Both the position numbers and the translations under genes were made by a program. From Methanomicrobia archaeon (GTDB taxonomy: Archaea > Methanobacteriota_B > Thermococci > Methanofastidiosales > NM3): a DNA stretch of 44,680 nt. How positions within the stretch are numbered: the stretch's first letter is position 1; each line of letters starts with the position of its first letter. The notes below the pieces were generated by a model. The model worked only from the letters and a program-made list of their open reading frames with translations, had not been told where the DNA came from and made no database searches. The DNA lies in contig JAUVXU010000003.1 of NCBI GenBank assembly GCA_030603445.1, positions 87,059-131,738 of the forward strand. Direction: 5' to 3'. Of the stretch, positions 20,417 through 25,756 are shown piece after piece.

Positions 20417-20455
20417 AATTAGTACTTCTTATAAGATACAATTAGTACTTCTTAT
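20417..20455. repeat. 16-bp direct repeat across the end of the zinc-ribbon gene
   Basis: AATTAGTACTTCTTAT occurs at 20417-20432 and again at 20440-20455, a 23-base period. The right copy contains the stop codon and the last codons of the zinc-ribbon gene, so the left copy looks like a small tandem duplication of its 3' end. Confidence 0.8.
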
Positions 20456-20603
20456 GTTTCTGGTAACAGTCCCGACAATATACAGGTCTGCCTTCCGCTG
20501 GTACGAAAGGTACTTCGCACTCTTCGCCACAATCTGCGCAGGTTGCCTTGTGCATTTCGCGTGGCCCAAAACTTCGTCTATTGCTTCGATCATTGAATCC
20601 CAT
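20442..20603 (-). CDS. Small CxxC...CxxC zinc-ribbon protein
   Basis: 53 residues, basic at the N-terminus (MGFNDRSNRRSF) and carrying CADC followed 17 residues later by CRDC, with the connecting EVPFVPAEGRPVYC and terminal YQKHKKY. This is the widespread CxxC-x17-CxxC zinc-ribbon family of prokaryotes, whose role is not established; nucleic-acid binding is likely. GAGGTGA precedes the ATG at 20603 at good spacing. A possible TATA box (minus strand, about 20729-20739) would give a leader of about 100 bases. Confidence 0.8.
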   Translation of the reverse strand: MGFNDRSNRRSFGPREMHKATCADCGEECEVPFVPAEGRPVYCRDCYQKHKKY

Positions 20604-20614
20604 GGATAATTCAC

Positions 20615-20980
20615 CTCACTTCAAGTTTTCCCATATCAAATCTCACGGAAATACTCAAGAATTACAACAATCTAAAGCAATTCTCCCTGTATTATCTATG
20701 GGTATGACCAGATTTATTAGGTTAATGCTTTTTAAATCTTTCGGCCAAAGACAAGTTCAAGATATTTGAAATAAACAGTTTATAGCCTTCTTACTGATAA
20801 ATAAAGGGGTATTTATCAATGAAAATATAATTTTCAGTTTTATAATCTGACTTTAACACTTGTTTGAACTACTTCAATTCTTTTTTATGATTTTACTCTT
20901 TATTAGCCATTCTTTATCATAAAAGTATCTTCGTTACTGAACACTGTTCCTTACCTTAAGTTCGTTTTCCTTTTAAAGGG
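20615..20980. other. Gap with only promoter-like AT-rich sequence
   Basis: This 366-base stretch contains the likely promoter of the minus-strand zinc-ribbon gene (GATTTAAAAAGC near 20729-20740). Nothing else in it can be supported as a gene. Confidence 0.4.
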
Positions 20981-20990
20981 ATGAATCTAC

Positions 20991-20999
20991 CTATATGTA
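20991..20999 (+). promoter_or_regulatory. TATA box for the DUF1102-receiver operon
   Basis: CTATATGTA, centred 25-26 bases before the ATG at 21020. It places the start at 21020, where the signal peptide begins, and argues against the in-frame ATG at 20981. Confidence 0.5.
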
Positions 21000-21019
21000 T
21001 AACTTATGAGCTGAACCTT

Positions 21020-21493
21020 ATGAGAAAGATACTACTCGCATTCCTCATACTCCCCCTCATACTGGGAATTACGGCAACAGGTGCCTTTACATCCGTATCG
21101 GCGGACAGGGTTGCGAATATAACAGTAGCAGACGATACAAATGCACTTCTAGCATTAACACCTTACAATGGGCCCAATGGAGCATATTTTGTTGACACTA
21201 ACAATGATGGTGCGTATGAATTAAGGGTAGGCAATGCCGCCACTGGACTTAACGTAGACTCCACCATTATTATAGAGAACATATTTGCCATAACAAACAA
21301 TGGCACGCAAACTGTCACTGTAACTTTAACGGACATAGGTGCATATAACGACCGAACAGACTTTGGGATAGTGGAAAATGGAGTAAGTCTAGGCGTAGGC
21401 CAGAGTGTTGTAGTATCACTACGCATCAATACAAATGGACTTAAAGAAGGAACGGAGCTGCTAGACTCCATCCTCATAAAAGCAGAAAAATAA
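21020..21493 (+). CDS. Secreted DUF1102 surface protein
   Basis: 157 residues. A signal peptide (MRKILLAFLILPLILGITATG) is followed directly by AFTSVSADRVANITVADD, the opening signature of DUF1102. The rest is all-beta (NVDSTIIIENIFAITNNGTQ), with several NxT glycosylation sites. DUF1102 proteins are known mainly from haloarchaea and resemble the TasA/camelysin class of secreted fibre or matrix proteins; no enzymatic residues are visible. A receiver-domain gene starts 13 bases downstream. Confidence 0.75.
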   Translation: MRKILLAFLILPLILGITATGAFTSVSADRVANITVADDTNALLALTPYNGPNGAYFVDTNNDGAYELRVGNAATGLNVDSTIIIENIFAITNNGTQTVTVTLTDIGAYNDRTDFGIVENGVSLGVGQSVVVSLRINTNGLKEGTELLDSILIKAEK

Positions 21494-21506: not shown

Positions 21507-21917
21507 ATGATTTCATGCGGAATTGTATCCGTGGAAGATAACAAGACCGATGCACTAGTTATTAAACGTACTTTAAAGCAATTAACTCATGAAAACGTTA
21601 CTATCCTAAAAGATGGAAAAGAGGCACTTAATTTTTTCAATGACAGCACAAAAACACCGTGCCTAATAATGCTTGATATCAATCTGCCACTATACAACGG
21701 ATTAGAACTCTTGGAAAAAATCCGCAATATAGAACACCTGCGCTATACCCCAATTATTATCTTCTCCTCATCGCACCTGGATGAAGAAATAAAAGAAGCG
21801 TACAAACTCGGTGCAAACTGCTATGTTGCAAAACCAAGTTCTCATGAAAAACTCGAAGACTCTATCAAAGAGATATATAAGTTCTGGTTTAATATAGCAA
21901 AAATCACGAACAACTAA
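21507..21917 (+). CDS. Stand-alone response-regulator receiver domain
   Basis: 136 residues, a single CheY-like domain: acidic pocket (VEDNKTDA), phosphoacceptor Asp in LIMLDINLP, switch Ser in IIFSSSH and the conserved Lys in VAKPSS. The late VWN-type tail (YKFWFNIA) is common in Rcp1-like lone receivers. There is no output domain and no histidine kinase in the window. The 13-base gap after the DUF1102 gene suggests a shared transcript. Confidence 0.88.
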   Translation: MISCGIVSVEDNKTDALVIKRTLKQLTHENVTILKDGKEALNFFNDSTKTPCLIMLDINLPLYNGLELLEKIRNIEHLRYTPIIIFSSSHLDEEIKEAYKLGANCYVAKPSSHEKLEDSIKEIYKFWFNIAKITNN

Positions 21918-22361: not shown

Positions 22362-22429
22362 AAAAGAAAGTAATGGCGCCGAGGTAGGGATTTGAACCCT
22401 AGCTCCCCGGAGGGGAACTGGCTCTCAAG
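22362..22429 (-). repeat. Attachment-site copy: 3' fragment of tRNA-Ser
   Basis: 68 bases identical to 25655-25722. It holds the tRNA-Ser 3' half, from the anticodon loop through the variable arm, T arm, acceptor 3' strand and CCA, plus 12 flanking bases. It lacks the 5' half and cannot be a working tRNA. This is the far attachment site left by integration into the intact tRNA gene at 25667-25756. Confidence 0.92.
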
Positions 22430-22439
22430 ACCCTCCTAG

Positions 22440-22821
22440 GGGTATTCTTCCTCGCCCATGCCATTCCACTGATTCGGTTTTGTACTCCTTACTAACGGAG
22501 AACTAATATTTAATATTTTACGAAATTGGCCTTTCGCCATTGCACAATGTATCCGTGGACACTTGTATAAATAACCCTTTGCACACATATCTAAACAAAC
22601 ATTGGTCCTTCCAATGTTCTTCCTCCTACAGGGCCCCGGGCCCACCTTTTCAGAGGGTGACTATGACAAAGGAAAAGATACTGTCCGCGTGCTGGCTGCT
22701 CGTCATGTCGCAAGAATAGTGATGATTATTTTTCATATAATTGATTAATTATATGATTTAATTCAAAATAATTCCAATAGTATGAATATTAATCAAAAAT
22801 ATAGTAATATCAGGCGGTATG
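22440..22821. other. Non-coding left end of the element
   Basis: Contains a perfect 8-bp hairpin with a 5-base loop (22598-22618, AACATTGG/CCAATGTT), a GC block at 22629-22643 inside AT-rich DNA, and an 18-codon reading frame at 22663-22719 with an AGAGGGTGA ribosome binding site, which may be the remnant of a signal peptide. No larger gene can be supported. Confidence 0.4.
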
Positions 22822-22829
22822 TTTATATC
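22822..22829 (+). promoter_or_regulatory. TATA box for the element's secreted-protein operon
   Basis: TTTATATC, which would start transcription near 22852 and leave a leader of about 8 bases before the ATG at 22860. Confidence 0.5.
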
Positions 22830-22859
22830 TAGGTATTGCGATATTGTTCCAGTGATACC

Positions 22860-24083
22860 ATGAAAAGGAAATACATCTGCATACCAGTGATGGTATTGAT
22901 GATATGTGCACTCTTCCCGGGGATGATGATCTCCGGGGACTGTGAAAGCTGCAGTACTGAAGATGTCACGCCGTATACCTCCCAGTATCTGCGTGAATCA
23001 AGTCTCGAAACCGACGAAATGCTTGATACACTGTTTCAGAATATTTCTAAGAAAACAGAATTACTCACTGAGATGCTCAAAAACGTACCATCCAAAGAAG
23101 ATGAAGAGCTTTCCTCACTAATAGACGATTTCTACACAGATTACATATACTATCTTCATTACAATTACCAGAAAGCGACTCTAGAAACAGTAAGTGCAAT
23201 GACAAGTGAGAGTAACAATTACTTGCTTATAAATGAGATAGACAAGCAGATAGAACGCTCCGAACTGGAGATGGCATTTCTGCAATACGAAAATTTGACA
23301 CGTGAAGTTGATGCGCAGTATGATATTCTGAGATTATACTATGCCCCTACAGAGGACACACAGGTCGAGTATGGAGTAGTGTTTGATAACATTCTTTTCC
23401 TTTACAAAGAACTAACGAACCTTAATACACGTTATGCCAGACTCATGACGGAGTATAATATTTCACTACAAGCAGAAAAACAAGAAATACTTATGAGATC
23501 TCTGGTAATATGCGACACTCCTGGAACTGGCGATAGCTTGCAAAGTTACCAACAATATTACATGGCAAGTTTTGCTTGGGTAAAAGCGTGGGTTGGTGTG
23601 TATAGCAGCCAGGTCCCAAACACAGATTATTTCATAGGGGAATTTTGTACTGGCACTAAAAACACGCTGGACGGGTACCTTGCTATCGCAAATGATGAGT
23701 ATGATCCATGGAATGTTGGGTCCATTCAGGTAAAATACTTCTTCATAGCCAATCAGAGCACACACCAGCATAATGCTATTTACGAGGGGAATAGGTCGAA
23801 CTATAACCTTAATGGCAACTATTCTATTGGGGGGAGGCAGGTGTCTTTTACAAATGGCACAGGATGGACATATGGCGTTTCATATGACGGCTCCAGCACG
23901 CCATCAAATGGGAACTATCGCTTCTACGTAAACGCGGATTGGTTTATTACGTACCAGGCCTGCTGCATACCGTCTTGGCCCCCCGATAATACAATATATC
24001 CCCAATGGTGCAATAAACACTGCGGCGGCTGCTTTGCATGCGATGATGGCGCGGACCAGAACTTTATTATTGATGAACCCTAA
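22860..24083 (+). CDS. Exported cargo protein A of the integrated element (unknown family)
   Basis: 407 residues with a signal peptide (MKRKYICIPVMVLMICALFPG). The mature N-terminal half is helical and acidic, with likely coiled coil (residues about 40-210; SELEMAFLQYENL, YKELTNLNTRYARL). The C-terminal half is beta-rich and aromatic (NLNGNYSIGGRQVSF, GYLAIANDEYDPWNVG) and ends with a Cys cluster (QACCIPSW...WCNKHCGGCFAC), probably disulfides or a bound metal. There are about seven NxS/T sites. No known family is recognised. The stop overlaps the next gene's ATG (TAATG), so the two are translated together. An in-frame TTG at 22836 is a less likely start. Confidence 0.7.
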   Translation: MKRKYICIPVMVLMICALFPGMMISGDCESCSTEDVTPYTSQYLRESSLETDEMLDTLFQNISKKTELLTEMLKNVPSKEDEELSSLIDDFYTDYIYYLHYNYQKATLETVSAMTSESNNYLLINEIDKQIERSELEMAFLQYENLTREVDAQYDILRLYYAPTEDTQVEYGVVFDNILFLYKELTNLNTRYARLMTEYNISLQAEKQEILMRSLVICDTPGTGDSLQSYQQYYMASFAWVKAWVGVYSSQVPNTDYFIGEFCTGTKNTLDGYLAIANDEYDPWNVGSIQVKYFFIANQSTHQHNAIYEGNRSNYNLNGNYSIGGRQVSFTNGTGWTYGVSYDGSSTPSNGNYRFYVNADWFITYQACCIPSWPPDNTIYPQWCNKHCGGCFACDDGADQNFIIDEP

Positions 24084-24808
24084 TGGCATATGGCTGTGAT
24101 ATAATAAAGAATAATCCTTGGCACACCATTCTGACACTGTCCCTCCTTTACTGCATAATGTGCAGTGGTTGCATAACAGACAAGGGCAACGAAGAAACAA
24201 TACCTCCGACAACGACAGTAGCGCCGACCACGGTACACACCCTGCCAATATACGCGTCCTTCCTGCAGGAGAAGATGGCGGAGTCGGAGGCCGCTTACGA
24301 GGCAGCATCGGCGGAATGGCAAAGAACCCTCGAGGCGTTCCTAGCCCTGGCGGGGTCGCCGGATTCGGGGCAGGACGATCTATATCAAGCGTACACAGAC
24401 TACGATGCGGCGTTACGGGAATACGAGCGCGTGCTGCAGGAATACTGCCGCAGGTCGATACTGACCGAGTACACCATCATCATCGAGGGAGACCTGCTGG
24501 CGCTGAAGAAGGAGACGATCCCTTTCAGTAGCCCGACCGGGATGACCTACACCTACGGGGTGCTGAACATGGGAGCTGAAGAATATATGGTCCACACAAG
24601 CGATATGGAGTTTCTTATCATGAGTGGCATTGGGGGGCAGGAATCTCGCCAGGAGCTCCTTGAGGCTATCGAAAGGATGGAGGAGTTCCTTCCAGAATAC
24701 CACGACATGATCATAGGGTACGTTTACGGCAAACTGAACAAGGTTTTGGTCTGTCAATCGGTCTACTCGGACATCCTGGAATACGGTTGCGACATCGGCT
24801 ACATCTAA
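24083..24808 (+). CDS. Exported lipoprotein-like cargo protein B of the integrated element (unknown family)
   Basis: 241 residues. A hydrophobic N-terminus ends in a lipobox-like CIMCSGC, followed by a Thr/Pro linker (PPTTTVAPTTVHT), a long helical acidic stretch (MAESEAAYEAASAEWQ..., about residues 65-130) and a mixed C-terminal domain (SRQELLEAIERMEEFLPEYHDM). It is probably a lipid-anchored surface protein. No family is recognised. The gene overlaps protein A by one base. Its middle is far more GC-rich than protein A and the host genes, which points to a different source or recombination within the element. Confidence 0.65.
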   Translation: MAYGCDIIKNNPWHTILTLSLLYCIMCSGCITDKGNEETIPPTTTVAPTTVHTLPIYASFLQEKMAESEAAYEAASAEWQRTLEAFLALAGSPDSGQDDLYQAYTDYDAALREYERVLQEYCRRSILTEYTIIIEGDLLALKKETIPFSSPTGMTYTYGVLNMGAEEYMVHTSDMEFLIMSGIGGQESRQELLEAIERMEEFLPEYHDMIIGYVYGKLNKVLVCQSVYSDILEYGCDIGYI

Positions 24809-24835
24809 TCCCGCAAGAAGCAAGACCCCCAGCCC

Positions 24836-24859
24836 TTTTCTTTTTCTTCCCTTTTTTTT
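24836..24859 (+). terminator. T-rich terminator after cargo protein B
   Basis: A pyrimidine tract ending in eight T (24852-24859) begins 28 bases after the stop at 24808, in an otherwise GC-rich part of the element. It suits the end of the two-gene transcript, and lies just before the convergent integrase remnant. Confidence 0.5.
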
Positions 24860-24863
24860 ACCA

Positions 24864-25575
24864 TCAACATCTGCAGAACTGTCTAGCCTGTCCCTTGCAC
24901 GAAGCCATCTTCGGCCTCTTCATGTGGGCCTTCCTGGCGTACTTCTTGACTAGCGCCCCCATGCTGTTGGGGGACATCTTGTTGCCCCTGCTCGAGGTGA
25001 AGAAATAGTCGTGCTCCGCATCGGGGCGGCGGCGGAGCCACTGGGCTAAGGCATCGGCGGCGTCCTTGTGGAGGATGCAGTCCGCCTCGGTATGGGGGTC
25101 TTGCTGCCGTGCACGGTGAGGACGCGCTCCTCCAGATTGAGATCTTATACCCTGATGTTTGTGACCTCCGTCCGGCGAAGCCCGCCGTACAGCATGAGGC
25201 ACAGCATGAGGCACAGCATGGCGTAGTCCCGTATCGAGTCGCACGCGTACAGGAGCCTCGTCGCCTCTATCTCCGTGAGATACGTCACGCCGAGGTATCG
25301 GTCGGCGGCTTGATGTCCGGGGGATCGATGTCAGCGTATCCGCAGTAGTGCTTCACTGTCTTGCAGTAGTTGCGCAGCCTTGATGCCGACCTATCATTGT
25401 CGAGGAGATGGGAATATACGGCGAGGAGATCCTCAGCGGAAGGGAAGGGCGTCCCAGCTCGCCTGGCTATGAACAGGTAATCCTTCCTCAACCATTCGCA
25501 GTATGTCTTGGAAAGCCCTTTTGCCCTCAGGTGGGAATAAAATTTATCGGAGAACGTAATAAGGTCTGATTTCAT
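24864..25575 (-). pseudogene. Tyrosine recombinase (integrase), degraded
   Basis: The N-terminal core-binding domain is readable from the ATG at 25575 (GGGAGG ribosome binding site): FSDKFYSHLRAKGLSKTY. A frameshift near 25300 moves the gene to a frame reading RYLGVTYLTEIEATRLLYAC and then YGGLRRTEV, with the first catalytic Arg. An in-frame TAA follows at 25145-25147, and a second frameshift near 25090 leads into ILHKDAADALAQWL and SPNSMGALVKKYARK. The sequence then stops without the HxxR, second His and Tyr of the active site. At least three lesions plus a lost C-terminus mean it cannot recombine DNA. Confidence 0.85.
25190..25220. repeat. 12-bp tandem repeat inside the integrase remnant
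   Basis: CAGCATGAGGCA occurs at 25190-25201 and 25202-25213, with a partial third copy to 25220. In the integrase frame it inserts an extra MLCL into the helix before YGGLRR. It looks like a slippage duplication after the gene lost function. Confidence 0.75.
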
Positions 25576-25654
25576 GGGTACTAGCCTCCCGAGCCAGTGT
25601 TCATATTTCATTAGGATATTATTACGGAAAACTAAAATAATGCCATATTTTCAC

Positions 25655-25722
25655 AAAAGAAAGTAATGGCGCCGAGGTAGGGATTTGAACCCTAGCTCCC
25701 CGGAGGGGAACTGGCTCTCAAG
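25655..25722 (-). repeat. Attachment-site copy within the intact tRNA-Ser
   Basis: The 68-base sequence shared with 22362-22429. Identity begins exactly at the anticodon loop of the tRNA and continues 12 bases past the CCA end, so the crossover used the tRNA 3' half. Confidence 0.92.
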
Positions 25723-25756
25723 GCCAGCGCGTTTGTCCGAGCTCTGCCACCTCGGC
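25667..25756 (-). tRNA. tRNA-Ser(TGA)
   Basis: A class II tRNA. The 7-bp acceptor stem GCCGAGG/CCTCGGC closes perfectly, followed by discriminator G and an encoded CCA. The anticodon stem CTGGC/GCCAG encloses the loop CTTGAGA, anticodon TGA, which reads UCA serine codons. The long variable arm pairs TCCCC with GGGGA, as expected for serine. The T arm (TAGGG TTCAAAT CCCTA) is intact. It is the integration target of the adjoining element, which restored the gene on insertion. Confidence 0.95.

Follow-up and report, generated by a model that had tools for sequence, protein, structure and literature searches.

How did two identical copies of part of a tRNA-Ser gene come to bracket two protein genes and the remains of a recombinase in a Thermococci-class archaeon? 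The window, the whole 44,680-nucleotide stretch of DNA analysed here, comes from a draft genome (G000; 1.62 Mb in 48 contigs), which was compared with the genomes of the relatives G001–G004. An earlier note, made from the sequence alone, had proposed that the DNA between the copies is an integrated element reduced to an integrase remnant and two cargo genes. The present analysis supports this proposal, above all through an empty site in G003 and a sister element in tRNA-Gly(GCC). The locus combines a perfect repeat, an intact tRNA gene, a decayed integrase, a relative with an empty site, and a second element of the same build in the same genome. It is therefore very probably a small integrated element, grounded by the loss of its integrase and kept for its secreted-protein cargo; its mobility is putative.

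A perfect repeat of the 3' part of tRNA-Ser(TGA)

A repeat search recovered the reported direct repeat, positions 22362–22429 and 25655–25722 being identical at 68 of 68 bases (70 of 71 when three bases beyond are included) with a spacing of 3,293 bp. Because the next-best direct repeat in the 8-kb region is only 32 nt long and 72% identical, a perfect 68-bp repeat within 8 kb is not due to chance. ARAGORN and Rfam (RF00005, 48.6 bits) place the right copy within an intact tRNA-Ser(TGA) gene (25667–25756, minus strand), as the earlier note had it, and find no other tRNA in the window. The right copy (minus strand) comprises the 3' 56 nt of the tRNA (tRNA positions 35–90) and 12 nt downstream of the gene. 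The tRNA alignment puts the start of the repeat at base 1 of the 7-base anticodon loop; the 12 bases beyond the gene are T-rich on the tRNA strand. The left copy (22362–22429, minus strand) is an orphan 3' fragment with the same 12-bp downstream stretch, lacks the tRNA 5' half, and was not called as a tRNA by ARAGORN or Rfam. A tandem tRNA array, the origin of the repeat that the earlier note had said would overturn its reading, is excluded: the window contains a single tRNA, the left copy has no 5' half, and G001 has one tRNA-Ser. In the tRNA alignment, both attachment-site copies share a tRNA-Ser variable-arm length unlike that of both family relatives. The G+C content is 47% in the element versus 39–40% in both flanks.

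A decayed integrase next to the tRNA

The tyrosine recombinase noted earlier beside the tRNA (24930–25611, minus strand) is confirmed by alignment with relatives and by a PF00589 match that contains one TAA, and its decay is extensive. Reading from the tRNA, the gene starts 43 bp inward of the right repeat. Its N-terminal part is one open frame (25611–25294), its middle lies in a second frame with an internal TAA (25145–25147) and a 12-bp in-frame tandem duplication in catalytic box I, and the next part lies in a third frame (25094–24930), the two frameshifts falling near 25290 and near 25080. Homology stops at approximately 24930. An intact relative of 281 aa is found directly after tRNA-Gly(TCC) in G003 (contig C199). 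Compared with this protein, the window integrase ends ahead of the HxxR and Tyr boxes and lacks the HTLRH box and the catalytic Tyr; at least the 3' end of the gene has been lost. The integrase N-terminus lies beside the tRNA in the window, as it does in C41 (the contig of the tRNA-Gly(GCC) element), G003:C199, and G004:C65. For the intact G003 integrase, no second tRNA-Gly fragment was found in the G003 assembly. In G000, no intact integrase of this clade was found, and the sole intact recombinase is a XerA-like protein about 27–29% identical. Judging from its reading frames, the window integrase is probably inactive, and the element would no longer be able to excise itself.

The last 21 residues of a 126-aa ORF (24864–25244) were considered as part of the integrase, but this reading was rejected: they derive from the cargo module's conserved 3' stretch, whose sequence is likewise found behind the cargo in the tRNA-Gly element and on G003 contigs C42 and C240.

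The corresponding site in relatives

The earlier note had proposed looking for an empty site in close relatives, and one exists in G003, a member of another genus of the family rather than a strain of the same species. On G003:C25, a response regulator gene, 65% identical to window positions 21507–21917, and the ortholog of a small protein lie about 1 kb from tRNA-Ser(TGA). That interval contains one extra ORF, and the same aldolase and aldehyde oxidoreductase genes follow beyond the tRNA. The second tRNA fragment, the integrase, and the cargo are all absent from this locus. G003 thus has the genes of both flanks around the tRNA but not the element, although the sequence immediately to the left of the repeat has diverged too far for a base-by-base match. 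G001:C23 has the same gene order, with riboflavin genes and others in between, and carries one tRNA-Ser alone, with no second tRNA-Ser fragment.

Two further features were observed to the left of the element. A 41-bp intergenic sequence (20939–20979) just upstream of a TafE-like fimbrial gene (20981–21493) recurs at 95% identity in three other places in G000 and at 83–88% in relatives. A small zinc-ribbon type protein (CADCGEECEVPFVPAEGRPVYCRDC; 20455–20590, minus strand), of which there are many conserved copies across the order, is probably ordinary.

Cargo genes

The two cargo ORFs are both open and overlap as TAATG. Cargo 1 (22860–24083, plus strand) encodes a predicted secreted protein of 407 aa with a signal peptide, a helical middle, a C-terminal beta domain, and a Cys-rich tail, WCNxHCGGCFACD, as judged from the ORF, its relatives, and a low-confidence structure model. 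The model (pLDDT 46) was too poor for a fold to be assigned, and no family library gives the protein a name. Its family consists of secreted proteins of this order with the Cys-rich tail; named relatives come from Thermococci-class MAGs, for example, Thermococci archaeon CSMAG_1087 and Thermococcus sp. JdFR-02. Cargo 1 had no match in phage records or viral contigs, and integrase relatives were likewise absent from the viral contigs. Cargo 2 (24083–24808, plus strand) encodes a 241-aa predicted lipoprotein with a lipobox-type Cys near the N-terminus. Its structure model is fair, a helical bundle with no significant match in the PDB. Cargo 2 has many paralogs across the family; its closest relatives, at 53% identity, are located elsewhere in G002 and G003.

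Neither gene matches a replication, capsid, or defence family, with no hit beyond chance in Pfam, PHROG, NCBIfam, or PADLOC, which bears out the earlier statement that the element has no replication or capsid gene. The signal peptides and lipoboxes point to a possible surface role, with the cargo perhaps expressed on the cell surface.

A second element in tRNA-Gly(GCC)

Among the 39 tRNA genes of G000 with fetched flanks, two have a nearby 3' duplicate, tRNA-Ser(TGA) and tRNA-Gly(GCC), and both duplicates bound an integrase remnant and a cargo-1-type gene. The second element, of 3,540 bp, is located on contig C41 (L062 6374–9989 = G000:C41:10373–13988). It extends from the tRNA-Gly(GCC) gene (L062 6374–6449) through an integrase N-terminus (L062 6560–6826), a relative of cargo 1 (L062 6977–8149), and a beta-propeller lipoprotein in place of cargo 2 (L062 8150–9343) to a perfect 43-bp copy of the tRNA 3' part (L062 9947–9989). 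Here, too, the repeat starts within the anticodon loop. G001, G002, and G004 all have an empty site at this tRNA, which independently supports the integration mechanism. The integrases of the two elements are about 31% identical over the N-terminal domain, and that of the tRNA-Gly element is 88% identical to its G003 counterpart. With lengths of 3.29 and 3.54 kb, the two elements suggest that such elements may typically be small.

Pairwise dN/dS was 0.4–0.5 among cargo 2 relatives and about 0.2 in the case of the beta-propeller lipoprotein; these values are rough, being computed between loci at dS near 1, and the cargo 1 comparison was saturated. Even as rough estimates, they show purifying selection on proteins related to cargo 2 and to the tRNA-Gly lipoprotein, and cargo 2 and the beta-propeller lipoprotein have therefore been kept as proteins.

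Other traces of recombinases were also observed. Just downstream of tRNA-Val(TAC) (L086 7553–7750; G000:C1:16553–16750), only an integrase C-terminus is found, within about 30 bp, 74% identical over 31 residues; this is a third, nearly erased integration scar, which has no repeat. G004 carries a decayed integrase after tRNA-Val(GAC). A decayed recombinase fragment near a contig end (L096 7115–7195; G000:C8:40114–40194) has no tRNA that could be found beside it.

Shared ends of the cargo module

The two elements share the ends of one cargo module. The conserved 5' end (22727–22979, plus strand) includes the upstream region with a putative promoter and the signal-peptide codons; between the window and the tRNA-Gly element, DNA identity is 71% over 133 bp upstream of cargo 1 and 88% over the first 120 bp (40 codons). 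The conserved 3' end (24836–24929, plus strand), a T-rich stretch and about 70 bp cut off at the junction with the integrase remnant, is 79% identical over 92 bp. The middle of the module, at 0.39–0.54, is little above the 0.41 of shuffled sequence, with the exception of the C-terminal domain of cargo 1, which is alike at the protein level. In G000, the end sequences occur in two places only, namely, the two elements. The 3' end is also present in G003:C42 and C240, where it extends further, and on G003:C240 (L068 209–338 and 13–90), a module 3' end precedes the 5' end of another cargo module, an order that suggests lipoprotein modules in tandem array, interrupted where the contig ends. In each element, the integrase remnant breaks off at the border of the module; since the two modules have opposite orientations, this border is the 5' side in C41 and the 3' side in the window.

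The occurrence of the same module ends beside two clearly distinct integrases suggests that the module, not the integrase, is the unit that persists. Exchange at the module ends might account for their conservation, as might shared regulation. A bolder view, to which we give little weight, is that the family of tiny tRNA-borne elements forms a delivery or exchange system for surface-protein operons, in which the conserved ends would serve as recombination handles and the middle genes would be exchanged among chromosomal arrays and elements whose integrases differ.

Origin and fate of the element

In the reading we favour, a small mobile element that encoded a XerA-like tyrosine integrase would have recombined at the anticodon-loop region of tRNA-Ser(TGA). 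The element would have supplied the tRNA 3' half and the 12-bp T-rich stretch, a possible terminator, so that the tRNA stayed whole, and the left repeat would be the displaced 3' half of the host gene. The integrase gene would later have decayed and been truncated at its 3' end, where it meets the cargo module, leaving the element unable to excise itself. The useful part that remained would be an operon of two genes, one for the secreted protein with the Cys-rich tail and one for the lipoprotein. We infer this order of events, as well as any past excision or movement between cells, from the present arrangement.

The locus could instead derive from a much larger provirus or plasmid trimmed by internal deletions, with the cargo a chance leftover, a plausible origin that we nonetheless consider somewhat improbable. 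In each element, the integrase is truncated at the border of the cargo module, which shows that sequence was deleted or replaced, and the tRNA-Val(TAC) scar retains the integrase C-terminus only. Moreover, no intact complete element was found, the contig with the intact G003 integrase ending 860 bp past that gene. Trimming of larger elements would, however, have had to yield near-equal size and build (3,293 and 3,540 bp) at different tRNA genes and with different integrases, while leaving no virus or plasmid gene in either element and, in cargo 1, a protein unmatched in phage records and viral contigs.

That the element is minimal yet still mobile, with another element's integrase or the host XerA acting on it in trans, appears improbable. 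Helper-dependent elements are a known class (PMC11389934), and the attachment-site copies are identical over 68 bp, including the 12 bp outside the tRNA and the distinctive variable-arm length; but recent insertion or gene conversion could also explain identical repeats, and G000 offers only the distant XerA-like recombinase and no intact integrase of the clade. It is highly improbable that no integrase was involved, the cargo being native to the locus and the tRNA fragment a product of duplication. A distant cargo 2 relative (28% identity) does lie between the same left neighbours and the tRNA in G001, but the nearest kin of cargo 2 are those at 53% located elsewhere in G002 and G003, and the native reading was rejected on this ground. 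In addition, the integrase remnant is correctly placed, the repeat starts at a typical exchange position, G003 has neither the fragment nor the cargo, and the second element with its own empty sites largely refutes a native origin.

Comparison with known integrated elements

The closest parallel is with the cryptic integrated elements of Thaumarchaeota, which consist of an integrase, att repeats, and few genes, in many cases with no obvious replication gene, and are as small as 2.6 kb (NitUzo-E2, an integrase and three other genes; PMC6563490). The defining features of such elements are found here: a tRNA 3' repeat at both ends, an intact tRNA at one, an adjoining integrase, albeit only as a decayed remnant, and an empty site in relatives. 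Unlike the thaumarchaeal elements, however, the element here has a destroyed integrase, lacks a winged-helix gene, and carries a long att repeat (68 bp versus a median of 17 bp there); it also has its surface-protein module in common with a second element. Assignment to a provirus or plasmid is not supported, neither cargo gene matching a capsid, packaging, or replication family.

Integrated Methanococcales plasmids without an integrase gene are cited in PMC8371274 as trapped by the loss of that gene after integration. The same kind of loss would have trapped the element here, which differs in having no plasmid replication genes and a still visible integrase remnant. With the suicidal integrases of the SSV type, the locus shares an archaeal tyrosine recombinase, a tRNA target, and an exchange region in the anticodon loop, as in IntSSV1 (PMC8371274). 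Unlike in those systems, the integrase gene does not contain the att repeat, and the other end of the element carries no C-terminal piece of the integrase; with no integrase match in 22430–22727, assignment to the SSV type was rejected. Archaeal XerA offers a further comparison: the G003:C199 integrase reaches 180 bits with NF040815 (XerA_Arch) and has matches among solved XerA structures, but it falls below the 220-bit cut-off, is tRNA-linked, and is about 27–29% identical to the XerA-like protein of G000.

Both small integrase-plus-cargo elements and integrase loss after integration have been described before, which makes this element a variation on the known archaeal cryptic integrated elements. 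The novelty lies in two such elements with one surface-protein module in common, each beside a different, decayed integrase. Together, they indicate that, in a poorly known Thermococci-class lineage, tRNA-targeted elements of very small size have repeatedly captured operons for secreted proteins and have retained this cargo while discarding the integrase.
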